A program made the translations under genes and the position numbers. A stretch of DNA of 64,000 bases from an uncultured Clostridia bacterium. GTDB taxonomy: Bacteria; Bacillota; Clostridia; Christensenellales; Borkfalkiaceae. The notes under the pieces were generated by a model that was not told the origin of the DNA, did no database searches, and saw only the letters and a list, made by a program, of their open reading frames with translations. Below, piece by piece: positions 13,911-27,757 of this stretch. Every line of letters starts with the position of its first letter. Position 1 is the first letter of the stretch. The stretch is from assembly GCA_944327465.1 (NCBI GenBank), contig CALVHH010000005.1, positions 40,418-104,417 of the forward strand, given 5' to 3'.

Positions 13911-15131
13911 ATGGAAAACAAAATTAAAAAAGTTGTGCTTGCCTATTCGGGCGGTCTCGATACATCGATAATCATACCCTGGCTCAAAGAAAATTACGAC
14001 AATTGCGAGGTAATAGCTGTCTCCGGCGACGTCGGGCAGACAACCGAACTCGACGGGCTGGAAGAAAAGGCGCTCAAGACGGGCGCGTCCAAGCTCTATA
14101 TCGAAGACCTCAAAAAGGAATTTATCGAAGATTATATCTATCCCACAATGAAGGCGGGCGCCGTCTACGAGAATAAATACCTTCTCGGCACGTCCTTTGC
14201 CCGTCCCATCATAGCCAAGAGAATAGTGGAGATAGCCAAAAAGGAGGGTGCCGACGCAATCTGCCATGGCTGTACAGGCAAGGGCAACGACCAGGTGCGT
14301 TTCGAACTTGCCATCAAGGCTTTTGCTCCCGAAATGCCCATAATAGCTCCCTGGAGGATATGGGACCTTAAGAGCCGCGACGAGGAGATAGACTACGCCG
14401 AAGCTCACAACATCCCCCTGAAGATAAACAGGGAGACGAATTATTCCAAAGACAAGAACCTCTGGCATCTGTCTCACGAAGGTCTCGACCTCGAAGACCC
14501 CGCAAACGAACCCGACTACGACAAGATATGCGAACTTGGCGTGTCCCCCTGGAAGGCGCCCAATAAGCCTTCGTACGTCACGATACACTTTGAAAAGGGT
14601 ATTCCCACCGCTATAGACGGCAAAAAGATAAGCGCGGTAAAGCTCATAGAAAAGCTCAACAAGATAGGCGGTAAAAACGGCGTCGGGCTTGTGGATATGG
14701 TCGAAAACAGACTTGTCGGCATGAAGTCCCGCGGCGTATACGAAACGCCTGGCGGCACTATCCTCTATACCGCTCACGAGCTGCTCGAGTCCATCTGCCT
14801 CGATAAGCAGACCATGCATTTCAAACAGCATGTGGCTATAAAGTACGGCGAGCTCGTCTACGACGGTCTTTGGTTCACCCCCCTCAGGGAGGCGCTCGAC
14901 GCTTTCGTAAACAAGACTCAGGAGTGCGTCACCGGCGACGTCAGGCTCAAGATTTATAAGGGCAACGTCATGAACGCGGGTATCACCTCGCCCAATTCCC
15001 TCTACAGCGAAGATATTGCCACATTCGGCGAAGACCATTGCTACGACCAGAAGGATTCGCAGGGATTCATCAATCTCTTCGGTCTGCCCATAAAGGTCAA
15101 GGCGATGCTCGACGAAAAAAAGCTCAAGTGA
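13911..15131 (+). CDS. argG: Argininosuccinate synthase
   Basis: Joins citrulline and aspartate with ATP to argininosuccinate. The 406 residues carry the N-type ATP pyrophosphatase PP-loop [15 protein letters not shown], the GDVGQ segment, [16 protein letters not shown] and [14 protein letters not shown], all hallmark ArgG motifs. It is the first gene of an eight-gene arginine operon and has its own promoter. The argH lyase needed for the next step is not in this window. A GGGAAAAAC sequence before the ATG is only a weak ribosome-binding site. Confidence 0.98.
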
Positions 15132-15139
15132 TATTTTAA

Positions 15140-16072
15140 ATGTACAATATTTTTATCGACGGAAAGGAGGGCACAACCGGTCTGCAGATATACGACAGAC
15201 TGGCTGCCCGCAGCGATATAAATCTCATTACTCTGCCCGAAGAACTTCGCAAGGACAGGGATGCGAGGAGGGAGTGCCTCAATAGGGCCGACATAAGTTT
15301 TTTATGCCTTCCCGATGCGGCAGCCGTCGAGGCGGTGTCCCTCGTTGAAAACGAGCGTTCGCGCATGATCGACGCATCAACGGCGCACCGCACTTCGCCC
15401 GGCTGGGTATACGGCTTTGCCGAATTGTCCGCAAAAAAGCGCGCCGAAATCGCCGCTGCCGACCGCGTAGCCAACCCCGGATGTTATGCCACTGGATTTA
15501 TTTCGCTTGTGGCTCCGCTTGTGGCGGGCGGCATAGCTTCGCCGGAATATCCCTTTGTCTGCCACGCGCTGAGCGGCTATTCCGGTGCCGGTAAAAAGGG
15601 TATAGCGCAGTATCTCAGTCCCGAAAGGGACAGGGAACTCGATTCTCCCAGGCACTATGCGCTGGGGCAGCGGCACAAACACCTGCCCGAAATGGTCGCC
15701 GTGTGCGGTTTAAAGGCTGCGCCTATATTTTCGCCCGTGATCTGCGATTATTATGCCGGCATGTTTGTTGCGGTGCCTATCCACGCGTCTCTTTTATCAA
15801 AAAAGTACAATTTAAACGATTTGCATAAGTATTTTACACAGTACTATGCGGGACATACATTTATAAAAGTCGTCGAAGACGGCGCCGTTCCCGATTTTCT
15901 TGCCTCAAACAAGATAGTCGGCAGCAACAATTTGGAAATATACGTCACCGGCAACGACGAGCAAATGGTGCTTTTCAGCGTATTCGATAATCTCGGCAAG
16001 GGCGCCTCTGGCGCCGCCGTGCAGAATATGAACATCATGCTCGGGCTTCCCGAAGATGCCGGGCTGCGTTGA
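15140..16072 (+). CDS. argC: N-acetyl-gamma-glutamyl-phosphate reductase (short type)
   Basis: NADPH-dependent reductase of the third step of ornithine synthesis. At 310 residues it belongs to the shorter ArgC class, with start FIDGKEGTTGLQIYDRL, catalytic cysteine in VANPGCYATGF, ALSGYSGAGKKG and RHKHLPEM. It follows argG by 8 nt. The longer ArgC class (~345 residues, GATGYTG-type start) is excluded by length and N-terminal motif. Confidence 0.96.
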   Translation: MYNIFIDGKEGTTGLQIYDRLAARSDINLITLPEELRKDRDARRECLNRADISFLCLPDAAAVEAVSLVENERSRMIDASTAHRTSPGWVYGFAELSAKKRAEIAAADRVANPGCYATGFISLVAPLVAGGIASPEYPFVCHALSGYSGAGKKGIAQYLSPERDRELDSPRHYALGQRHKHLPEMVAVCGLKAAPIFSPVICDYYAGMFVAVPIHASLLSKKYNLNDLHKYFTQYYAGHTFIKVVEDGAVPDFLASNKIVGSNNLEIYVTGNDEQMVLFSVFDNLGKGASGAAVQNMNIMLGLPEDAGLR

Positions 16073-16092: not shown

Positions 16093-17310
16093 ATGCAAAT
16101 AAAAGAAATTTCCGGCGGCGTATGTGCTCCCGCAGGCTTCAGCGCCAACGGCGTGCACTGCGGCATACGCAAGAATAAAATTAAAAAGGATTTTGCGCTG
16201 ATAGTCAGTTCGGTCAGGGCTGCGGCGGCAGGAGTGTACACGTCCAATCTCGTCAAGGGAGCGCCCGTCGTCGTCACCAAGGCTCACCTCGCCGATGGTC
16301 ATGCCCGGGCGATAGTCGTCAACAGCGGCAACGCCAATACCTGCAATTCCGACGGCATCGAAGTAGCCGAGGCGATGTGTGCAATGGTCGAGCGGGTCAG
16401 CGGCATACCCTCAGCCGACGTTGCGGTCGCGTCTACGGGCGTCATAGGTCAGAAGCTCGATATCTCGCCCATGCTTGCCCACATCGATGAGCTGTATTCG
16501 GGGCTGGGCGACAACAGCTTAGCCGCCGCCGAAGCGATAATGACTACGGATACCGTCAGCAAGCAGGTTGCCGTTGAATTTGAGCTGGGCGGAAAGAAGT
16601 GCCGCATCGGCGGCATTGCAAAGGGAGTAGGCATGGTCTGTCCCAATATGGCGACCAACCTCATCTTTCTGACTTCCGATGTAGCCATCTCGCCGCAGAT
16701 GCTGCAAAAGTCGCTTTCCTCCGACGTAAAGAGCTCGTTCAACATGGTCTCGGTCGATGGCGACCAGTCTACAAACGATACCTGCTGTATCCTTGCAAAC
16801 GGGCTTGCCGGCAACGACGAAATAGTCGCCCCTTCCGCGGAGCTCAATAAATTCCGTAAGGCGCTCAATTACTGCACCGTAAAACTTTCAAAAATGCTTG
16901 CAAAGGACGGCGAGGGCGCCACAAAGCTCATCGAATGCCGCGTCGTCGGCGCAAAGAGCCTTGCCTCGGCAAGAACGGTGTGCAAAAGCATAATCAAATC
17001 TTCACTCGTCAAGGCGGCAATGTTCGGCGCCGATGCCAATTGGGGTAGAGTGCTGTGCGCCATAGGCTATTCGGGCGCGGCGGTAGACGTGCACAGGATA
17101 GACGTATCGTTCATATCGCACGGCGGCGAGGTGAAGGTGTGTCGGGACGGTTACGGGCTCGATTTTTCCGAAGAGCTCGCCAAAAAAGTGCTCTCGGAGG
17201 ACGAGGTCACCATATACGTCGATTTAAAGTCCGGCTCGCACAAGGCGGCGGCGTGGGGCTGCGATTTGACGTATGATTACGTTAAAATTAACGGGGACTA
17301 CAGAACTTAA
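16093..17310 (+). CDS. argJ: Glutamate N-acetyltransferase / N-acetylglutamate synthase
   Basis: Transfers acetyl from N-acetylornithine to glutamate, recycling the acetyl group, and may also use acetyl-CoA. The 405-residue precursor has the self-cleavage region KGVGMVCPNMATNLIF, where the Thr after Ala is the nucleophile and new N-terminus of the beta chain. FNMVSVDGDQSTNDT and GADANWGRVLCAIGYSG are further family motifs. Having ArgJ means the acetyl cycle can run without ArgE or ArgA in this locus. No clear ribosome-binding site precedes the ATG. Confidence 0.97.
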   Translation: MQIKEISGGVCAPAGFSANGVHCGIRKNKIKKDFALIVSSVRAAAAGVYTSNLVKGAPVVVTKAHLADGHARAIVVNSGNANTCNSDGIEVAEAMCAMVERVSGIPSADVAVASTGVIGQKLDISPMLAHIDELYSGLGDNSLAAAEAIMTTDTVSKQVAVEFELGGKKCRIGGIAKGVGMVCPNMATNLIFLTSDVAISPQMLQKSLSSDVKSSFNMVSVDGDQSTNDTCCILANGLAGNDEIVAPSAELNKFRKALNYCTVKLSKMLAKDGEGATKLIECRVVGAKSLASARTVCKSIIKSSLVKAAMFGADANWGRVLCAIGYSGAAVDVHRIDVSFISHGGEVKVCRDGYGLDFSEELAKKVLSEDEVTIYVDLKSGSHKAAAWGCDLTYDYVKINGDYRT

Positions 17311-17325
17311 TTGCAGGTTTTGTCA

Positions 17326-18171
17326 ATGAATAAACAGGAACAGGCAGCTTTTCTGATAGAGGCTATGCCCTATATCAAAAAGTACTTCAACAAAATACTT
17401 GTCGTAAAGTACGGCGGAAACGCGATGATAGATGACGAGCTCAAGTCGTCCGTCATGCGCGATCTCGTCGTTTTGAATGCTCTCGGCATAAAGGTCGTGC
17501 TTGTCCACGGCGGCGGGCCCGAAATTTCTGAGACAATAAAGCAGATGGGCAAGGAGAGCAGGTTCATAAACGGGCTGCGCTATACCGACGGCGAGACTGC
17601 CGAAGTGGTGCGCATGGTGCTTGCGGGAAAGACCAATAAAACTTTAACCGACCTCATCTGCCGCAACGGCGGAAAGGCCGTGGGCATCTGCGGTCAGGAC
17701 GGGCACTTGTTGAAGTGCTCCAAGCAGAATGAAGAGCTTGGGTTTGTCGGCAGGATAGAGCAGGTGAACACTCAGATAATAGTCGACCTTCTCGGGCTCG
17801 GCTATGTTCCCGTCGTTGCAACCGTAGGCTATGACGACGAGGGAAATATCTATAACATAAATGCAGATACTGCCGCCGCATCTATAGCCGGCGCGCTCAA
17901 TGCCGAAAGTCTCATTCTCATGACAGATATCAGGGGGCTCCTTGAAGACAAGGACGACCCCGACAGTCTTATTAAAAAAGTTTATGTATCCGATATCCCC
18001 GCTCTCGTAAAGCAGGGCATAATCTCCGGCGGCATGATACCCAAAATAGAGTGCTGCAAAGATGCCATCCGTCGCGGCGTTAAAAAAGCCGTTATTATAG
18101 ACGGAAGGGTCAGCCATTCCATTTTAATAGAATTATTGTCCGATGAAGGCAGCGGCACAATGTTCGTTTGA
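17326..18171 (+). CDS. argB: Acetylglutamate kinase
   Basis: Phosphorylates N-acetylglutamate, usually the arginine-feedback step. Motifs: VVKYGGNAMID, VLVHGGGPEISE, VGICGQDG, NINADTAAASIAGAL and ISGGMIPKIE. The start is placed at the ATG at 17326 (MNKQEQAAFLIEAMPYIKKYF), with CAGG eight bases upstream; a TTG directly after the argJ stop would add five residues. The N-terminal helix of arginine-sensitive enzymes appears present, which suggests feedback inhibition (inference). A hairpin with a T-run follows the stop. Confidence 0.97.
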   Translation: MNKQEQAAFLIEAMPYIKKYFNKILVVKYGGNAMIDDELKSSVMRDLVVLNALGIKVVLVHGGGPEISETIKQMGKESRFINGLRYTDGETAEVVRMVLAGKTNKTLTDLICRNGGKAVGICGQDGHLLKCSKQNEELGFVGRIEQVNTQIIVDLLGLGYVPVVATVGYDDEGNIYNINADTAAASIAGALNAESLILMTDIRGLLEDKDDPDSLIKKVYVSDIPALVKQGIISGGMIPKIECCKDAIRRGVKKAVIIDGRVSHSILIELLSDEGSGTMFV

Positions 18172-18249: not shown

Positions 18250-19410
18250 ATGGATAAACAGCAAATTTTTAACGATGACGGGGCGTATATCGCGCCCACA
18301 TACGCCCGTTTCAAAGTGGCTTTCGTCCGCGGCGAGGGCAGCAGGCTGTACGATACCGACGGCAAAGAGTATATAGACTGCGCCACGGGCATAGGTGTCA
18401 ACATTTTCGGCGTCTGCGACGAAGAGTGGAAACAGGCGGTCATCCGCCAGCTCGGCATGATACAGCATACTTCAAATCTGTACTATTCGCTCCCCCAGAC
18501 AGAGCTTGCCAGGCTGCTCTGCACAAAGACGGGCGCGGATAAGGTGTTTTTCTCCAACAGCGGGGCTGAAGCCAACGAGTGCGCAATAAAGGCGGCAAGA
18601 AAGTACGGCAATACAAAGTACGGCAGAAACGAGATAATAACATTAAAAAATTCATTTCACGGCAGAACCATGGCGACGCTCACCGCCACCGGGCAGGATG
18701 AGTTCCATAAATATTTCTATCCGTTTTTGGAAGGCTTCAGGTATGCCGAGCCGGACATGAACGGCGTCCTTAGTTGCTATACCGATAAGACTTGTGCGGT
18801 CATGATAGAGTGCATACAGGGCGAAAGCGGCGTGCACGTTCTTGACGCGGAGTTTTTGAAGGAGCTTGAAAAATTCTGCAAGGAGCGCGATATACTGCTC
18901 ATCTGCGACGAGGTGCAGTGCGGCAACGGCAGAACGGGCAGGATGTACGCGTACGAGCATGCCGGCATCCGACCCGATATAGTTACTACGGCAAAGGGTC
19001 TTGGCGGCGGACTGCCGATAGGCGCCTGTCTGCTGTTCGGTAAGTGCGCCGGTATATTCGGCAGCGGCGACCACGGCTCTACGTTCGGCGGCAACCCCGT
19101 CGCCTGTGCGGGCGCGGTCAGCATAGTCGAACGTCTCACCAACGAACTGTTTTTGGAGGTGCAGGGCAAGGGGGCATACCTCAAAACTCATCTGTCACGT
19201 ATAAAAAACGTCGAGGAGGTTACGGGTCTCGGGCTGATGATAGGTTTAAAAACTTCCGCTCCCGCGCGCGATGTGGCAAGCGCCTGCCTTGAAAAGGGGC
19301 TTATAGTTCTCACCGCGCATGACAGGGTGCGGCTGCTGCCTCCGCTTAATATAACCAAAGCCGAAATGGAGCAGGCAATAAAAATATTGAAAGAGGTATT
19401 AGAAAAATGA
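18250..19410 (+). CDS. argD: Acetylornithine aminotransferase
   Basis: PLP-dependent class III aminotransferase that converts N-acetylglutamate semialdehyde to N-acetylornithine. Its 386 residues show FSNSGAEANECAIKAARKYG, the HGRTMATLTATGQ segment, LLICDEVQCGNGRTGRMYAYE and the PLP lysine in TTAKGLGGGLPIGA. The stop overlaps the argF start by 4 nt (ATGA). It is separated from argB by a 78-base gap that holds a terminator-like hairpin. Confidence 0.96.
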   Translation: MDKQQIFNDDGAYIAPTYARFKVAFVRGEGSRLYDTDGKEYIDCATGIGVNIFGVCDEEWKQAVIRQLGMIQHTSNLYYSLPQTELARLLCTKTGADKVFFSNSGAEANECAIKAARKYGNTKYGRNEIITLKNSFHGRTMATLTATGQDEFHKYFYPFLEGFRYAEPDMNGVLSCYTDKTCAVMIECIQGESGVHVLDAEFLKELEKFCKERDILLICDEVQCGNGRTGRMYAYEHAGIRPDIVTTAKGLGGGLPIGACLLFGKCAGIFGSGDHGSTFGGNPVACAGAVSIVERLTNELFLEVQGKGAYLKTHLSRIKNVEEVTGLGLMIGLKTSAPARDVASACLEKGLIVLTAHDRVRLLPPLNITKAEMEQAIKILKEVLEK

Positions 19411-20309
19411 AACATCTATTAAAATTGCAGGATCTTACCCGCGAGGACATATTATCCATACTCAATCTCGCCGATCAACTCAAATTTGAAAGGATAAACG
19501 GCGTTCAGAAGGACTATTTAAAGGGCAAAAAACTTGGTCTCATATTTCAGAAGGCTTCCACCCGTACGAGGGTTTCGTTCGAAGTGGGCATCTATGAGCT
19601 GGGCGGCTACGGACTCTTCCTTTCAAGCAACGATTTGCAGATAGGCCGCGGCGAGCCCGTGCAGGACACCGCAAGGGTGCTTTCGCGCTACCTCGACGGC
19701 ATAATGATAAGGACGTTTGAGCAAAAAGAGGTGGAAGACCTTGCAAAATACGGCTCCATCCCCGTCATCAACGGACTTACCGACTATGCTCACCCCTGCC
19801 AGGTGCTTGCCGATTTGATGACTATACGCGAATACAAGGGGTCGTTCAAGGGTTTGAAGATGGCTTTCGTCGGCGACGGAAACAATATGGCAAACAGCCT
19901 CACCGTAGGTGCCGTCAAGACGGGCATGTCATTTGCCATAGCCTGTCCCAAGGGCTATGAGCCCGATGCCGAAATAATGAAGTGGGCAAAGGCAAACGGG
20001 CAGTTCACTGTCACCGAAAGCGTTGAAGAGGCGGTAAAGGATGCCGACGTCGTCTACACCGACGTTTGGGCGTCCATGGGTCAGGAGAGCGAAAGGCAGA
20101 AGAGGGCTCAGGCGTTTTCGGGTTACCAGGTCAACGCCGAATGTATGAAGTTTGCCAAGCCCGACGCTATGGTCATGCACTGCCTGCCTGCGCATCGCGG
20201 CGAGGAGATAACCGAAGAAGTATTCGAAGCGCACGCAAAGGAAATCTTCGACGAGGCAGAAAACAGGCTGCACGCACAAAAAGCGGTCATGGTCAAACTT
20301 TTAAAGTGA
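19407..20309 (+). CDS. argF: Ornithine carbamoyltransferase
   Basis: Makes citrulline from ornithine and carbamoyl phosphate. The 300 residues contain the carbamoyl-phosphate loop STRTRVSFEVG, the DYAHPCQVLADL motif and the ornithine-binding HCLPAHRGEE. The biosynthetic role follows from its place between argD and carAB, which supply both substrates. The start overlaps argD. Confidence 0.97.
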   Translation: MKHLLKLQDLTREDILSILNLADQLKFERINGVQKDYLKGKKLGLIFQKASTRTRVSFEVGIYELGGYGLFLSSNDLQIGRGEPVQDTARVLSRYLDGIMIRTFEQKEVEDLAKYGSIPVINGLTDYAHPCQVLADLMTIREYKGSFKGLKMAFVGDGNNMANSLTVGAVKTGMSFAIACPKGYEPDAEIMKWAKANGQFTVTESVEEAVKDADVVYTDVWASMGQESERQKRAQAFSGYQVNAECMKFAKPDAMVMHCLPAHRGEEITEEVFEAHAKEIFDEAENRLHAQKAVMVKLLK

Positions 20310-20357: not shown

Positions 20358-21431
20358 ATGGAAAACGGCAAAGTTTATTTAACGCTGCAAAACGGTAAAC
20401 AATTTGTCGGTACGCGTTTCGGCGCATCCGGCGACGTCATCGGCGAGCTTGTCTTTACCACGGGTATGACTGGTTACGTAGAAACGCTGACCGACCCCAG
20501 CTATTACGGGCAGATAGTCACCCAAACCTTCCCGCTCATAGGCAACTACGGCATAACTCCCGATTTCGAGAGTAAAAAGCCGTGGGTGTCGGCGTATATC
20601 GTCAGGGAAAAGTGCGACGAGCCCTCTAATTTCAGGTGCGAGGAAAAGCTCGATAAATATTTAAAGGACAACGGAATCGTCGGTGTATACGGCGTAGACA
20701 CTCGCGAACTGACAAAGATAGTCAGGGAATCGGGCGTCATGAATGCGGCTATAACTTCCCGCCCCGTCACCGATTTTTCTGCAATCAAGTCTTATGTGAT
20801 AAGCGACGCCGTTATGAGCGTAACTTGCAAAGAAGTCGAATATTACGGCGACCCCTCCGGTCTGAAAGTAGTAGTTTGGGATTTCGGCGCCAAGGATAAC
20901 ATCGTGCGCGAACTCGTCAAGCGCGGCTGCTACTGCATAAAAGTGCCCGCAGGCTACACAGCCGAAGAAATTCTTGCGCTGCAGCCCCGCGGGCTCATGT
21001 TGTGCAACGGTCCCGGCGACCCCGCCGAAAATGTCGGGATAATAGAAAATCTTAAAAAACTTGCCGGCAAGCTGCCCATCTTCGGCATATGCCTCGGGCA
21101 CCAGCTGTTTGCGCTCGCCATGGGCGGCAAGACCAAAAAGATGAAGTACGGTCACCGCGGAGCCAATCAGCCCGTCAAGTGCCTTGCCACTGGCAGGGTG
21201 TATATCTCCAGCCAGAACCATGGCTACGAGGTAATATCCTCCGGGCTCGAAGGCGTGGGTCAGCTCAGCTACATCAACGCCAACGACAACACCTGCGAAG
21301 GCTTCGATTATCCCCAGCTCAACGCCTATACCGTTCAGTTCCATCCCGAAGCATGCGGCGGACCGCAGGATGCTTCGTTCCTCTTCGACAAATTCATAAA
21401 AAATATGACGGAGGGAAAGTATAATGCCTAA
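20358..21431 (+). CDS. carA: Carbamoyl-phosphate synthase small subunit (glutaminase)
   Basis: Class I glutamine amidotransferase that feeds ammonia to CarB. The 357 residues have the N-terminal CarA domain (FTTGMTGYVETLTDPSYYGQ) and the C-terminal glutaminase with nucleophile in FGICLGHQLFALA and the His-Glu pair in QFHPEACGGP. AAGGAA precedes the ATG. It overlaps carB by 8 nt. The location in an arginine operon suggests the product mainly feeds ArgF; no separate pyrimidine-type copy is seen here. Confidence 0.97.
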   Translation: MENGKVYLTLQNGKQFVGTRFGASGDVIGELVFTTGMTGYVETLTDPSYYGQIVTQTFPLIGNYGITPDFESKKPWVSAYIVREKCDEPSNFRCEEKLDKYLKDNGIVGVYGVDTRELTKIVRESGVMNAAITSRPVTDFSAIKSYVISDAVMSVTCKEVEYYGDPSGLKVVVWDFGAKDNIVRELVKRGCYCIKVPAGYTAEEILALQPRGLMLCNGPGDPAENVGIIENLKKLAGKLPIFGICLGHQLFALAMGGKTKKMKYGHRGANQPVKCLATGRVYISSQNHGYEVISSGLEGVGQLSYINANDNTCEGFDYPQLNAYTVQFHPEACGGPQDASFLFDKFIKNMTEGKYNA

Positions 21432-24400
21432 GAGAGAAGATATTAAAAAGGTACTTGTTATAGGTTCGGGTCCCATAGTCATAGGGCAGGCAGCCGAATT
21501 CGACTATGCGGGAGCGCAGGCATGCCGCGTCATGAAGGATGCGGGGCTCAACGTAGTGCTCTGTAACTCCAACCCCGCCACGATAATGACGGACAGCGCG
21601 CTCGCCGATGAGATATATCTCGAGCCGCTCACCGTTGAAACGCTCAAAAGAATAATCATAAAGGAGCGCCCGGACAGTCTGCTTGCCTCACTCGGCGGAC
21701 AGACGGGTCTCACCCTTGGCTGCAAACTTGCCAAGGAGGGCTTTTTGGATGAGTACGGCGTCAAGCTCATAGGCGTAAACGTCGATTCGATAGACAGGGC
21801 AGAGGACAGGGAACTGTTCAAAGAGACTATGAACAAGATAGGTCAGCCCGTCGTTCCTTCGGACATCGCGTACACCGTCGAAGAGTGCGTGGAGGTGGCA
21901 AACAGAATAGGCGGCTATCCCGTCATCGTCCGTCCCGCGTACACGCTGGGCGGTGCCGGCGGCGGCGTCGCCCACGACGAAGAGGAGCTCAGGCTCATTG
22001 CTCACAACGGTCTGATGCTCTCGCCCATTACCCAGGTACTCATCGAAAGATATATCGGCGGCTGGAAGGAGATAGAGTTCGAGGTGCTGCGCGACGGCGC
22101 AGGCAATGTGCTCACCGTCTGCTCTATGGAAAACTTTGACCCCGTAGGTATACACACAGGCGACTCAATCGTCATCGCGCCCGCGGTAACGCTCTCCGAT
22201 AAAGAGTATCAGATGCTGCGCACGGCGTCTCTCGACATAATAACCGAACTCGGCATCGAAGGCGGCTGCAACTGTCAGTTTGCACTCAATCCCGACTCGT
22301 TCGAATACTCCGTAATAGAAGTAAACCCCAGGGTGTCGCGCTCGTCGGCGCTCGCTTCAAAGGCTACGGGCTACCCCATAGCCAAGGTGGCGGCAAAGAT
22401 AGCTTTGGGCTACACCCTCGATGAAATAAAGAACGACGTCACGGGCAAAACTTATGCCTGCTTCGAACCCACTCTGGACTACGTAGTAGTCAAGCTTCCC
22501 AAGTGGCCGTTCGATAAATTTCTGTATGCAAAGCGCACTTTGGGCACGCGCATGAAGGCTACCGGCGAAGTCATGGCGATAGGCACAAGCTTTGAAATGG
22601 CTATAATGAAGGCTGTGCGCGGCGCCGAAATTTCCTTGAACACCCTCAATATGCCCAAAATGGAGGAACTGTCCGACGGCGAGATACGCGAAAAGCTGCA
22701 CGAGCTCACCGATGAAAGATTGTTTGTCGTCTATCAGGCAATAAAGCGCGGATTCGACATAAACGAGATTTATTCGATAACGAAGATAGACGAGTGGTTC
22801 CTCAATAAGCTCAAAAATCTCTCCGACTATGAGGCGGCAATTTCCGGCAGAAAACTGAGCAAAGCCGACTATTTGAAGGGAAAAAAGTTGGGATACCCCG
22901 ATAAGGCGCTTGCCGAAATTTCGGGCAATCCCCTGCCCGGGCATGTCGATGCCGCGTTCAAAATGGTCGATACCTGCGGCGCGGAATTTGCGGCGCAGAC
23001 GCCCTATTTCTACTCCACTTATGACGAAAAGGAGCACGATGAAGCTCTGCCCTACGTCACGGCGAGCCGCAAGAACAAAAGGAAGAGAATAATCGTAATA
23101 GGCTCTGGTCCCATAAGGATAGGTCAGGGCATAGAGTTCGACTATTCTTCCGTACACTGCGTATGGGCGCTCAAGCGGCTCGGTTACGAAGTTATCATAA
23201 TCAACAACAATCCCGAAACGGTATCTACCGACTTTGATACCGCCGACAGACTGTATTTTGAAAGTCTCACTCCCGAAGACGTTCAAAACGTCATCGATGT
23301 CGAAAAGCCCTACGGCGTAGTTGTAACGTTCGGCGGTCAGACGGCTATAAAGCTGTGCGGATATCTCGATAAAAAGGGAGTGCGCATACTCGGTACGCCC
23401 GCTTCGTCCATCGACCTCGCCGAGGACAGGGAGAAGTTTGACGAGCTTTTGGAACAGTTCCATATTGCCCGTCCCAAGGGTCTTACGGTAATGACCAAGG
23501 AAGAGGCGGTTCACGCTGCCGAAACATTGGGTTATCCCGTATTGCTCCGTCCATCGTACGTCATCGGCGGTCAGAATATGACCATCGCCTTCACTCAGAA
23601 CGATATCGAAAGGTACATGGACGTCATTCTTGCGCAGAACATCGAAAATCCCGTACTCTGCGACAAGTACCTCATGGGTACAGAGCTTGAAGTCGATGCC
23701 ATATCCGACGGCGTGGACGTGCTCATTCCCGGCATAATGCAGCATATCGAGAGGGCGGGCGTGCACAGCGGCGACTCCATAGCCGTATATCCCCCGTACA
23801 GCCTCAGCGATGCCATGCTTAAAAAGGTGGTGGAGATATCTACAAACCTTGCGCTGTCGCTCAAGACCAAGGGACTGATAAATATACAGTACCTCATCTA
23901 TCATAACGAGCTGTACGTAATAGAGGTAAACCCCAGGGCGTCGCGCACCATTCCCTATATTTCAAAGGTCACGGGAGTGCCCATGGTCGACCTCGCCACG
24001 CGCATAATGGTCGGCGCAAAGCTCAAGCGGCTCGGTTACGGTACGGGGCTCTATAAAAATTCGCCCTATGTTGCCGTCAAGGTGCCTGTGTTCTCGTTTG
24101 AAAAACTCAACGACGTCAACTCTCAGCTCGGTCCCGAAATGAAGTCTACCGGCGAAGTTTTGGGCATAGGCAAGACTATTGAAGAGGCGCTCTTCAAGGG
24201 GCTCGTCTCTGCGGGCTTCAACATGAAGCACCCCACCAAGCGCAATCCTTCGGGCATTTATTTCACGATAAACGACCAGGATAAGTTTGAAATAGTCAAT
24301 ATAGTCAAAAAATTTGCCGACTTGGGTCTGACGTTCTATGCCACTAAGGGTACTGCGAACGTCATAAGAAGTCTGGGCATCGACTGTACCGAGGTGGCAC

Positions 24401-25476
24401 GCCTTTCGTCCAACGATGAAATATTCAAGCTGATGGACGAGGGCAAGATAGACTATATCGTATATACCGGCAAGACTGATATCGAGTCGATAACCAACTA
24501 CATTTCGCTTCATCACCATGCCATACTTCTCGGCATAACCGTGCTCACTTCGCTCGATACGGCTAATGCGCTTGCCGACGTTATCGCGGGCAGGTACAAT
24601 CAGTTCAACACCGAGCTCGTCGATATAAATCACCTCAGGAAGGAAAAGCTCAAGCTCGAGTTCAACAAAATGCACTCCTGCGGCAACGACTATATCTTCT
24701 TCAACAATATGGACAACAGGATCACCTGTCCCGAATCGCTTGCGATAAACTTTGCCGACAGGCACTATGCCATAGGCGGCGACGGTATAATCCTGCTTGA
24801 AAAGTCCGAAGTTGCGGATGCCGCCGTCAGGGTGTTCAACAGCGACGGCTCCGATGCCGGCTTTGCGGCAAATGCAATGAGGATTGCCGCAAAATATCTC
24901 TACGACAGCGGTATGTGCGGCGGCAACGTGATAACGCTTGAAAGCGGCGGCGAAGTTGCCAAACTCACGGTGTCGTGTTTCAATAACGAGGCGAGCTCCG
25001 TCTGCATAAATATCGGTCGTTCGCAGATGACCGATGTCCCCATGCCCGCGCTTGAAACGTACAAAAAGTACGGCGGCAGCGATGCCGTGGCGCATAAAGT
25101 GCTCATCGGCAAGCAGCATCTCGTTATCTTCTTAGATAAGATTGACGACGTCGATTTTGAAGACCTCATCCAGGAACTTTCGCAGGAGAACGGCGAACTC
25201 TATGGTGAAGTCGACTTTGTCGAATGCGTCAGGGTCGTCAACAGCGTTACGGTGCGCATGCGCGTCTACGGCAAGGTAAACGGCGAAACCTGGTCGTGTG
25301 GCACGGCGGCTGCTTCGGCGGCGATAGCCGCCATTGAGCGCGGCGATTGTTCGCGCGGCGAGCTCATAACCGTAAAGGTAAAGGGCGGCGATCTGTTTGT
25401 CAAGATAGATGAAAGCGGTTCTGTCGAAGTCGACGGTCCCGTCAAAAAGGCATTCAAAGGCATAATAGAAATATAA
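21424..25476 (+). CDS. carB: Carbamoyl-phosphate synthase large subunit fused to a DapF-like domain
   Basis: Residues 1 to ~1075 are a complete CarB: two ATP-grasp halves (GSGPIVIGQAAEFDYAG and GSGPIRIGQGIEFDYSS openings) and the C-terminal MGS-like regulatory domain. It continues in frame into ~274 residues homologous to diaminopimelate epimerase: FNKMHSCGNDY (1080 on), FADRHYAIGGDGIILLE and RVFNSDGSDAG at 1136-1146. The usual first catalytic Cys in the CGNG motif is Ala1148 (AANA); the second is kept (Cys1292, SCGTAAAS). Two-base epimerisation should therefore be impaired (inference). The junction LKLEFNKMH looks like a native dapF start with Met replaced by Leu. The stop overlaps the next start by one base. 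Confidence 0.93.
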   Translation: MPKREDIKKVLVIGSGPIVIGQAAEFDYAGAQACRVMKDAGLNVVLCNSNPATIMTDSALADEIYLEPLTVETLKRIIIKERPDSLLASLGGQTGLTLGCKLAKEGFLDEYGVKLIGVNVDSIDRAEDRELFKETMNKIGQPVVPSDIAYTVEECVEVANRIGGYPVIVRPAYTLGGAGGGVAHDEEELRLIAHNGLMLSPITQVLIERYIGGWKEIEFEVLRDGAGNVLTVCSMENFDPVGIHTGDSIVIAPAVTLSDKEYQMLRTASLDIITELGIEGGCNCQFALNPDSFEYSVIEVNPRVSRSSALASKATGYPIAKVAAKIALGYTLDEIKNDVTGKTYACFEPTLDYVVVKLPKWPFDKFLYAKRTLGTRMKATGEVMAIGTSFEMAIMKAVRGAEISLNTLNMPKMEELSDGEIREKLHELTDERLFVVYQAIKRGFDINEIYSITKIDEWFLNKLKNLSDYEAAISGRKLSKADYLKGKKLGYPDKALAEISGNPLPGHVDAAFKMVDTCGAEFAAQTPYFYSTYDEKEHDEALPYVTASRKNKRKRIIVIGSGPIRIGQGIEFDYSSVHCVWALKRLGYEVIIINNNPETVSTDFDTADRLYFESLTPEDVQNVIDVEKPYGVVVTFGGQTAIKLCGYLDKKGVRILGTPASSIDLAEDREKFDELLEQFHIARPKGLTVMTKEEAVHAAETLGYPVLLRPSYVIGGQNMTIAFTQNDIERYMDVILAQNIENPVLCDKYLMGTELEVDAISDGVDVLIPGIMQHIERAGVHSGDSIAVYPPYSLSDAMLKKVVEISTNLALSLKTKGLINIQYLIYHNELYVIEVNPRASRTIPYISKVTGVPMVDLATRIMVGAKLKRLGYGTGLYKNSPYVAVKVPVFSFEKLNDVNSQLGPEMKSTGEVLGIGKTIEEALFKGLVSAGFNMKHPTKRNPSGIYFTINDQDKFEIVNIVKKFADLGLTFYATKGTANVIRSLGIDCTEVARLSSNDEIFKLMDEGKIDYIVYTGKTDIESITNYISLHHHAILLGITVLTSLDTANALADVIAGRYNQFNTELVDINHLRKEKLKLEFNKMHSCGNDYIFFNNMDNRITCPESLAINFADRHYAIGGDGIILLEKSEVADAAVRVFNSDGSDAGFAANAMRIAAKYLYDSGMCGGNVITLESGGEVAKLTVSCFNNEASSVCINIGRSQMTDVPMPALETYKKYGGSDAVAHKVLIGKQHLVIFLDKIDDVDFEDLIQELSQENGELYGEVDFVECVRVVNSVTVRMRVYGKVNGETWSCGTAAASAAIAAIERGDCSRGELITVKVKGGDLFVKIDESGSVEVDGPVKKAFKGIIEI

Positions 25477-26600
25477 TGATATATCTCGATAACGCCGCTA
25501 CCACACGCCCGGACAGGGGGTGTCTTGAAGAGGCTCAACAATTTATATATCAGAACTATTATAATCCTTCCGCGCTCTACGCGGAAGGTTATAATTTGCA
25601 TATCATGCTCAAGCAGGCGCGTGCAAACATATTGTCTCTCATAGCCGACGATAATTACGAAGTTATTTTTACTTCATGCGGCACCGAGGCGGATAACCAT
25701 GCTCTGTTTTGCGGCGGAAGAAGGGGCAACGTAGTCACCACTATGGGCGAGCACGCCGCCGTATTCTCTGCCGCAGCCGAACTCAAACAGCTCGGCATCG
25801 AAGTCAGGTTAGCGCCCCTTCGCAGCGACGGAGGGGTGGATGAAGATGAACTTATCCGCCTCGTCGACGACAAGACCTCGCTCGTATCCGTTATTCACGT
25901 AAATAACGAAACGGGAGCAGTCAACGACGTGAACGCGATTGCAAAAAGGGTAAAGGCTAAAAATCCTCGCACGCTCTTTCATTCGGACGGCGTGCAGGCT
26001 TTTGGCAAAATACCGTTTAAATTGAGCGAAAATATCGATTTGTATAGTACTTCGTCACACAAAATAGGCGGAATGAAGGGCACGGGCGCACTCTTTAAGC
26101 GCAAAAAGCTCGTCTTAAAGCCGTTTATTTTTGGCGGAGGTCAGGAAAACGGCATGCGCAGCGGCACTGAAAACGTCTTCGGGATAAAGATGTTTGAACT
26201 CGCCGCGCTCAAGCATTACGGCAAGCTCAGGGAAAATTTCTGCAATGCAAAGGAATTGTCCTATAAGCTTTGGTCGCTTTTGGATAAGCAGCTGTTCGTT
26301 CGCATTTCTCCCGAAAACGGCTCGCCTTATATACTCACGGTGGGCGCAAAGGGAGTGCGCGGCGAAACTATTCTGCATGAAGCGGATGATCGCGGGCTCA
26401 TTATTGGCACGGGTTCGGCGTGCTCTTCCAACAATAAAAAGCGCTATTCCCGCGTCATATTGGCGTGCGGCGTCGGCGAAGAAGTTGCCGACGGCATACT
26501 TCGTCTGTCGCTCGGCAGCGAAACTTGCGAAAGCGATGTCGTGCAGGCTGCCGCCATATTGAATTCGGTAGTTAAAAACAGAAGGGAGATGATGTCCTGA
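25476..26600 (+). CDS. Cysteine desulfurase paired with ThiI
   Basis: PLP enzyme of the NifS/IscS class that moves sulfur from cysteine to a protein persulfide. Features: YLDNAATTRPD start, HVNNETGAVND, the PLP lysine in TSSHKIGGMKGTG, RSGTENV, and the persulfide cysteine in GTGSACSSNN. The 374-residue length and its position 2 bases before thiI match the desulfurase-thiI pairs of Firmicutes that lack IscS-ThiI rhodanese relay. It probably serves tRNA 4-thiouridine formation; a wider role in Fe-S assembly is possible. Confidence 0.93.
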   Translation: MIYLDNAATTRPDRGCLEEAQQFIYQNYYNPSALYAEGYNLHIMLKQARANILSLIADDNYEVIFTSCGTEADNHALFCGGRRGNVVTTMGEHAAVFSAAAELKQLGIEVRLAPLRSDGGVDEDELIRLVDDKTSLVSVIHVNNETGAVNDVNAIAKRVKAKNPRTLFHSDGVQAFGKIPFKLSENIDLYSTSSHKIGGMKGTGALFKRKKLVLKPFIFGGGQENGMRSGTENVFGIKMFELAALKHYGKLRENFCNAKELSYKLWSLLDKQLFVRISPENGSPYILTVGAKGVRGETILHEADDRGLIIGTGSACSSNNKKRYSRVILACGVGEEVADGILRLSLGSETCESDVVQAAAILNSVVKNRREMMS

Positions 26601-26602
26601 TT

Positions 26603-27757
26603 ATGGAAAAGGTTATCATTATAAGATATTGCGAACTCTATCTTAAGGGAAAGAACCGCGGCTATTTTGAAAGGCTGTTTGCCGTAAATATCGAAAGGTC
26701 GCTTAAAGGTATCAGGCATGAACTGCGGCGAAAGAGCGGGCGGTATCTCATTGAGGGATTTGAAGAAGACGACGTCGACAGAATACTTTCAAAACTCTGC
26801 AAAGTGTTCGGCATCCATACGCTGTCGGTAGCATATAAAGTGTCGAGCGATTTCGATAACATCTATGCCGCCGCAAGGCTGGTGGCGCCCCTTTGCGGAA
26901 CTTTTAAAGTTGAAACTCATCGCGCAGACAAGAGCTTTCCCATGAATTCCATGCAGTTGAGCGCCGCTATAGGCGGCAGATTGCTCGACGACGTAAAATC
27001 GCTTTCTGTCGACGTGCATTCCCCCGAACATGTCGTCAATATAGACGTGCGCGAGGACGGAACTTCGCTGGTGTTCGGCAGCTTTATAAAGGGTGCGGGC
27101 GGCATGCCCGTCGGCAGTGCGGGCAAGGGATTGTTGCTCATTTCCGGCGGCATCGACAGCCCCGTCGCGGGGCATATGATAGCCAAACGCGGCATGAGTC
27201 TGGACTGCGTGCATTTCCACAGCTATCCGTATACGAATATGCAGGCTAAGGAAAAGGTGATTGACCTTGCCAAAATACTTTCGGAATATGCCTGCGGAAT
27301 GAATTTACATGTCATCAAAGTCACGCATATCCAGGAGGAGATACACAAAAAATGCAACGGCGAGTACATGGTCACGCTCTTGCGTCGGTTCATGATGCGC
27401 ATAGCCGAAAAAATCGCCGAAAGCTGCGGCGCTCAGTGCATAATTACCGGCGAAAGTCTGGGGCAGGTCGCCAGCCAGACGATCGAGGGCATGACTTCGT
27501 CCAACGCCGTCATCGAACGGCTGCCTGTACTGCGTCCCTTGTGCGGTTTCGATAAAAACGAGATAATCGAAAGGAGCAAGGATATAGGCACATACGATAT
27601 TTCCATACTTCCCTACGAGGACTGCTGTACGGTGTTTTTGCCCAAGCATCCCGTTACGCGTCCCAAGATGGAGGACGTGCTTTCGGAAGAGGCGAAACTC
27701 GATGTCCAAGCGCTCGTAGCCGAGGCGCTGTCTACGCTTGAGATCATAAAATTTTAA
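26603..27757 (+). CDS. thiI: tRNA 4-thiouridine synthase ThiI
   Basis: Adenylates U8 of tRNA and accepts sulfur from the adjacent desulfurase. The 384 residues comprise an N-terminal ferredoxin-like and THUMP region (to ~165), then a PP-loop ATPase (LLLISGGIDSPVAGHMIAKRG). The C-terminal half has ITGESLGQVASQT and DCCTVFLPKHP. There is no rhodanese domain, as in the Bacillus form, so sulfur delivery differs from E. coli. It is the last gene of the rightward run that starts at argG. Confidence 0.96.
   Translation: MEKVIIIRYCELYLKGKNRGYFERLFAVNIERSLKGIRHELRRKSGRYLIEGFEEDDVDRILSKLCKVFGIHTLSVAYKVSSDFDNIYAAARLVAPLCGTFKVETHRADKSFPMNSMQLSAAIGGRLLDDVKSLSVDVHSPEHVVNIDVREDGTSLVFGSFIKGAGGMPVGSAGKGLLLISGGIDSPVAGHMIAKRGMSLDCVHFHSYPYTNMQAKEKVIDLAKILSEYACGMNLHVIKVTHIQEEIHKKCNGEYMVTLLRRFMMRIAEKIAESCGAQCIITGESLGQVASQTIEGMTSSNAVIERLPVLRPLCGFDKNEIIERSKDIGTYDISILPYEDCCTVFLPKHPVTRPKMEDVLSEEAKLDVQALVAEALSTLEIIKF

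Follow-up and report, generated by a model that had tools for sequence, protein, structure and literature searches.

An old carB::dapF gene fusion in Clostridia with repeated loss of a catalytic cysteine from its DapF domain

The window analyzed here is a stretch of 64,000 nucleotides from an uncultured Clostridia bacterium of the family Borkfalkiaceae (assembly GCA_944327465.1, contig CALVHH010000005.1, positions 40,418 to 104,417). It contains a fused gene, carB::dapF, in which a complete large subunit of carbamoyl-phosphate synthase (CPSase), CarB, is continued in frame by a domain resembling diaminopimelate (DAP) epimerase, DapF, with alanine in place of the first of two catalytic cysteines. 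CarB and DapF are already known; new here are their fusion and the apparent retirement of one of the two enzymes in some lineages. The fused gene has the following features (window positions):

21424..25476, forward strand: carB::dapF fusion gene, 1350 aa, ATG start, no internal stop
21424..24636, forward strand: CarB part, residues 1-1071, with two ATP-grasp halves, the oligomerization domain and the MGS allosteric domain
24289-24546: Pfam MGS domain within the CarB part, residues 956-1041
24619..24672, forward strand: junction from VDIN to KM (VDIN...KM), 18 residues long in 75 of 75 aligned fusions
24658..25467, forward strand: DapF-like domain, TIGR00652 match at residues 1079-1348, predicted DapF fold
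24865..24867, forward strand: codon of Ala1148, which replaces the first catalytic cysteine (C73 in Haemophilus influenzae, C83 in Corynebacterium glutamicum)
25297..25299, forward strand: codon of Cys1292, the second catalytic cysteine, retained according to the alignment

The CarB part is matched by the NCBIfam profile TIGR01369 (1398 bits, residues 2-1052, cut-off 1027) and the tail by the DapF profile TIGR00652 (151.6 bits, cut-off 114.65), and Pfam concurs on both parts; the open reading frame 21424-25476 thus bears out the initial annotation, made from the sequence alone, of a complete CarB running in frame into a DapF domain. An AlphaFold2 model of residues 930-1350, based on an alignment of 75 fusions, has a mean predicted local distance difference test score (pLDDT) of 89.8 and a predicted template modeling score (pTM) of 0.72. 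Its top Foldseek match is DapF of Bacillus anthracis (2otn; E 2.6e-29, TM score on target 0.82), and the solved structures nearest to the tail are DapFs. Profile score and predicted fold agree with DapF membership, while the catalytic cysteine pair is incomplete.

The catalytic cysteines were placed by alignment on solved DapFs and by an alignment of 165 DapF domains. At domain positions 77-79 the window has AAN in place of the CGN motif; this is unambiguous, so a cysteine hidden by a misplaced alignment was rejected, and the first reading of Ala1148 and Cys1292 holds. In H. influenzae numbering, further changes are G74 to A and, at the DAP recognition residues, N157 to K, N190 to F, E208 to G and R209 to K; N11, N64, N75, C217, G218 and T219 are retained. 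The activity of C. glutamicum DapF was nearly abolished by alanine at N15, N74, N85, N159, N194, E212, R213 or T223 or at one or the other of the cysteines (PMC5296763), and in Anabaena DapF Asn66, Asn164, Asn197 and Arg216 hold the distal carboxylate (PMC12039745). The C83A mutant of the former enzyme matches Ala1148 and supports the earlier expectation that a stand-alone racemase with this sequence would be inactive or changed; from such mutants of other DapFs, the window's domain is presumed to have lost its activity.

The carB::dapF fusion is old and widespread in Clostridia. Among 37 genomes of the window's genus, a CarB match over the cut-off was found in 30 and was fused in 30 of 30. 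In 29 of them the frame is open and 1342-1385 aa long, which answers the initial proposal to look in relatives for CarB proteins of more than 1300 residues; the remaining one (G020; G and L numbers are our handles for genomes and loci) is truncated within its DapF part by the end of a contig. Four genus members (G009, G017, G018, G035) gave a best CarB match no better than 6.5e-12, and G017 and G018 have a PyrB match over the cut-off despite this. At the level of the order, a DapF-profile match lies inside an open frame of at least 550 aa in at least 112 of 396 genomes from 17 family codes, a lower bound with the CarB part verified in the fetched loci. Named neighbors are 'Candidatus Coproplasma' and other Clostridia metagenome-assembled genomes. 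A class-wide sample of 143 genomes added 24 fusions, including one cut by a contig end (G450), and a phylum-wide sample of 144 genomes added five outside the class; in these samples DapF was sought in 28 and 8 genomes, respectively, picked because their CarB frame was long or closely related, and further fusions may have been missed. Open fused frames in many independent genomes, including the single-contig G069, rule out an assembly artefact or a missing stop, and the fusion is therefore a real one, as first supposed. A longer CarB of 1272 aa (L080 in G058) gave no DapF match and was dropped as a fusion candidate. Literature searches on the fusion or on CPSase fusions, with most subscription journals and preprints beyond their reach, returned no description of it, and the available part of a gut-genome reconstruction study (PMC9026213) does not mention it.

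In a CarB tree (C-terminal half, 147 rows, quick method) the fused label requires three changes. A group made up of the fused rows, L252/L230 and L259 has a Shimodaira-Hasegawa-like approximate likelihood ratio (SH-aLRT) support of 100, and one of 119 rows, the 117 fused rows and two unfused ones inside (L255, L187), has a support of 85. In the DapF tree the label requires four changes, of which only one is forced by supported branches. The sister CarB lineage L252 (G532) has the order carA-carB-dapF-pyrG-dapL, in which carB and dapF are two genes with a 4-base overlap. This is likely the state before the fusion, fission being the alternative, and it makes plausible the initial suggestion that the junction is a former dapF start. 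Separate adjacent carB and dapF genes, which could have spoken against a fusion, occur in G532 and as second copies in G204 and G329; none of them is the window's own gene. In G204 (L190) and G329 (L191) the second cluster is carA-carB-dapF-dapL with an unfused carB, and the fused copy has Ser in place of its first cysteine. The CarBs L255 (G655) and L259 (G479), in or beside the fused clade, stop at the junction motif; no DapF turned up in the two genomes, each of which has a DAP dehydrogenase (Ddh). The CarB tree intermingles family codes, so that transfer between lineages is likely.

The fusions exist in two catalytic states, intact (both cysteines) and broken. At least 10 changes of the first cysteine are needed on the CarB tree and at least nine on the DapF tree, and at least six of the second on the CarB tree; the residue replacing the first is Ala, Ser or Gly, depending on the lineage, and some lineages have lost both cysteines. 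Among the distinct stand-alone DapFs fetched, the first cysteine is retained in 48 of 49. The exception, L243 (G450), is a 332-aa DapF-like open frame without either cysteine, which is a stand-alone gene or a piece of a fusion. Loss of the second cysteine with the first retained (CGNG / ASGS) was seen in a single fusion, L175 (G238), whose genome has Ddh.

These states were compared with the other routes to meso-DAP. In 80 fused genomes (of 90 selected, leaving out G153, G271, G312, G338, G352, G376, G390, G392, G413 and G418), the fusion is intact and the only DapF in 30, intact beside a separate DapF in 3, broken and the only DapF in 6, and broken beside a separate DapF in 41. The corresponding numbers for 102 genomes are 38, 9, 11 and 44; this set consists of 76 of the former 80 (without G061, G194, G206 and G291, genus members outside the tree) and 26 of the 29 class and phylum fusions (without G450, G550 and G670, respectively with a partial domain, not carried over and not among the tree rows). 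Ddh, sought in 68 genomes, is present in 7 of the 11 broken-only genomes (G302, G363, G118, G238, G478, G531, G538) and in 14 of the 38 intact-only ones. At least one alternative route is thus present in 51 of 55 broken genomes, the window's among them, vs. 23 of 47 intact ones (Fisher p 1e-6, the genomes not being independent). Since no other DapF or Ddh was found in 24 of the 47 intact-fusion genomes, the fusion is probably their DAP epimerase; in some lineages it thus seems to be a working enzyme. A strict two-way rule, with the first cysteine lost exactly when there is a separate dapF, was rejected, given 11 broken fusions without and nine intact ones with such a gene (7 of the 11 having Ddh). 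The genus g69 has both states: in G116 and G355 the fusion is intact and no separate DapF or Ddh was found; G204 and G329 have Ser, Ddh and a separate dapF located after the second, unfused carB and before dapL; and G363 has Ser and Ddh, with no separate DapF found.

Gene context also differs between the states. The genes upstream of the window's fusion are:

13911..15131, forward strand: argG
15140..16072, forward strand: argC
16093..17310, forward strand: argJ
17311..18171, forward strand: amino-acid kinase family protein (Pfam PF00696), the name argB being inferred from its position
18250..19410, forward strand: argD, acetylornithine transaminase
19407..20309, forward strand: argF, ornithine carbamoyltransferase
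20358..21431, forward strand: carA, 410.7 bits to TIGR01368, overlapping the carB start by 8 bases

The kinase had no NCBIfam match at 1e-80. The locus is an arginine biosynthesis operon, as the initial annotation had it. Directly 3' of the fused gene lie a nifS-like cysteine desulfurase gene and thiI (25476-27757), a pair also found 3' of the fusion in 39 of 39 listed genus loci and in three further loci from the family (L127, L132, L138). In the window's genome (assembly 92% complete) the fused CarB is the sole CarB match over the cut-off, and PyrB is matched over its cut-off; with the arginine-operon setting, one CPSase therefore appears to serve both arginine and pyrimidines. A second, intact dapF, proposed as something to look for, is present at G000:C2:63853-64689 (273.7 bits to TIGR00652, both cysteines) and is followed by pyrG and dapL.

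Outside the genus, the comparison covered 73 fused loci with a length of 5.5 kb or more, some of which end near the gene, so that 'neither' includes missing data; neighbors were identified by NCBIfam for examples, extended by phmmer. Intact loci have pyrG or dapL as neighbors in 25 cases, arginine genes in none and neither in 11, while broken loci have arginine genes in 21, pyrG in one (L170) and neither in 15. The earlier annotation had thus not foreseen that in many lineages of this old fusion the domain is intact, is the only DapF found and lies beside pyrG/dapL, never beside arginine genes in the loci examined. The window's fusion shares the domain order and the 18-residue junction with these intact fusions and differs from them in the cysteine pair (one left) and in having an arginine operon instead of the pyrG/dapL neighborhood. 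Several loci (L165, L150, L254 and others) have a purF-carA-carB::dapF-pyrG cluster, which in many of them includes dapL and in some is preceded by a glnA-like gene; this grouping of purine, pyrimidine and DAP genes suggests joint control of nucleotide and cell-wall precursors.

Conservation of the cleft was counted separately in two sets, the 'genus' here meaning domains with AA or SV at positions 77-78, whatever their taxonomy. In 57 domains without the first cysteine outside this group (C73 0 by definition), the distal contacts are almost invariant (N64 57, N157 57, N190 56, E208 57, R209 56), as are G74 and G218 (57 each); the proximal residues are retained in 48 (N11), 52 (N75), 53 (T219) and 49 (C217), and other formerly conserved columns have drifted. 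In the 55 distinct domains of the genus group, N11 (55), N64 (54-55), N75 (54), C217 (54) and G218 (55) are kept; of the distal clamp, N190 is retained in one (mostly Phe or Tyr) and R209 in five (mostly Lys), N157 in 39 and E208 in 30. A structural module that dimerizes or stabilizes CarB or docks a partner protein, with no small molecule sensed (the scaffold option of the initial annotation), would need no distal contacts at 56-57 of 57 outside the genus, nor the 54-55 of 55 within it, and we consider such a role unlikely. It would suit the fixed junction length, the drift of N157 and E208 in the genus and the behavior of Escherichia coli DapF, which activates RppH through protein contact independently of its cysteines: with both replaced, it still binds and stimulates RppH (PMC4227774).

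A catalytic role of another kind for the remaining cysteine was also considered. C217 is kept in 54 of the 55 domains of the genus group and in 49 of the 57 outside it, and a trans-3-hydroxy-L-proline dehydratase of the same fold is found at rank 34 of the Foldseek matches. Some relatives in the proline racemase superfamily catalyze other reactions with one cysteine left. Still, a changed chemistry seems to us very improbable, as the variation between Ala, Ser and Gly leaves no common new catalytic residue, both cysteines are gone in some lineages, and C83A nearly abolishes C. glutamicum DapF activity (PMC5296763).

Purifying selection acts on the fused DapF domain. Rates were computed for five distinct pairs of equal length with a synonymous rate (dS) below 0.9, of which three have a member in common. 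The domain's ratio of nonsynonymous to synonymous rates (dN/dS) is 0.03-0.11 in four of the five; for CarB the values in the five pairs are 0.006-0.016 and 0.064. It is thus improbable that, once a separate dapF or Ddh had taken over, the domain remained as a decaying passenger, although it evolves faster than CarB, has lost cysteines and is absent from L255 and L187 inside the fused group: the listed fused matches of the genus have no stops, the junction length is invariant, and the distal DAP contacts are retained in 56-57 of 57 domains.

In E. coli the MGS domain is the place of CPSase regulation, and in CarB of this species Thr1042 belongs to the ornithine site and Lys993 to UMP binding (PMC6245113). 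By alignment with this protein, Thr stands at the Thr1042 position in all 52 intact fusions and in 63 of the 65 others, among them the window's; Lys stands at the Lys993 position in all 52 intact fusions and in 20 of the 65 others, and the window's fusion has Arg there (the 65 rows include L251, of unknown state, and L175, in which the second cysteine only is lost). Cysteine-less lineages outside the large arginine-operon clade mostly retain Lys993; its change is thus a feature of that clade, and loss of the UMP site with every cysteine loss was rejected.

We read the cysteine-less fusion domain as a pseudo-epimerase, non-catalytic and probably ligand-sensing, on the allosteric end of CarB, with a probability of about 0.5 on the sequence evidence. 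Neighboring carB and dapF of a nucleotide/DAP gene cluster would have joined in one old fusion. Beside pyrG/dapL, fusions that keep both cysteines would be two-in-one enzymes, CPSase large subunit and DAP epimerase; where a separate dapF or Ddh is usual and carA-carB::dapF often lies in an arginine operon, as in the window's genus, the first cysteine is gone and the domain retained. The two lobes of DapF close on the substrate (PMC5296763), and in the cysteine-less domain the cleft between them could close on an amino-acid ligand without turnover, its ligand state being relayed to the adjoining MGS domain. For a domain joined to MGS by a fixed junction, binding without turnover may be the simplest use, and the stimulation of RppH by cysteine-less E. 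coli DapF (PMC4227774) is a precedent for an effect on another enzyme without catalysis. For the cysteine-less lineages outside the genus, DAP is a conceivable ligand, given their retained distal contacts. The replacement of the distal-carboxylate clamp in the window's genus (N190 by Phe or Tyr, R209 mostly by Lys) disfavors DAP and points to a ligand with one alpha-amino-acid head; ornithine, arginine or lysine are guesses. Recruitment as a sensor, suggested initially, stands as reasonable in view of the kept contacts, the selection and the junction, with DAP disfavored in the genus among the ligands then listed. More tentatively, and with less than even confidence, the repeated loss of the same cysteine with the cleft kept may mean that a biosynthetic enzyme fused to CPSase became an allosteric amino-acid sensor several times, its DAP site silenced and then, in the genus, retuned to a basic amino acid; the one CPSase serving arginine and pyrimidines would in this way read amino-acid supply.

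Several points weigh against this pseudo-epimerase reading. Ligand binding and coupling to CPSase are themselves conjectural, and the conserved contacts may stem from folding or domain closure. The domain evolves several-fold faster than CarB, with a dN/dS of 0.34 in the fifth, most diverged pair. Most of the association of catalytic state with context and with alternative route rests on few events: the tree shows just two changes of context, so that the context counts amount to hardly more than two observations, and catalytic state vs. alternative route gave only five supported independent pairs, with no significance (sign test median p 0.5). The nine of 47 intact fusions alongside a separate DapF, and 14 more alongside Ddh, mean that redundancy by itself does not remove the cysteine. 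Four broken genomes (G230, G394, G524, G554) have neither route in their assemblies, those of G524 and G554 being 65% complete and the fusion of G394 still lying beside pyrG; most genomes are incomplete, and 'only DapF' denotes absence from an assembly.

The fusion puts two pathways that meet in peptidoglycan precursors, those of pyrimidine nucleotides and meso-DAP, in one polypeptide. It offers a graded natural series, from a presumably active epimerase through a domain that may only bind to a remodeled cleft, and so a direct way to study an enzyme becoming a regulatory domain. For annotation, the CarB end is the only recognized meso-DAP route found in 24 of 102 genomes, and elsewhere a DapF match in the same architecture is probably inactive.

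Compared with E. coli CarB (TIGR01369), the window likewise has a complete CarB with a full-length match over the cut-off, an adjoining carA and the ornithine-site Thr, and differs in the C-terminal DapF domain after MGS and in Arg at the Lys993 position. In human CPS1 the effector site lies in an MGS-type domain. This enzyme (5dot, 5dou), switched on by N-acetylglutamate bound at its C-terminal part (PMC4655335), resembles the proposed sensor as a CPSase under an amino-acid-type effector, and has no DapF domain. With DapF (TIGR00652; 2otn, 5m47, 9mro) the window's domain shares fold and length; it differs at the first catalytic cysteine, N157, N190, E208 and R209 and in its fusion to CarB. 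In the E. coli DapF-RppH complex (6d13) a DapF fold acts on another enzyme without its own catalysis (PMC4227774); there, a separate active DapF acts in trans, whereas here a presumably inactive domain lies within the polypeptide, its effect being conjectural.

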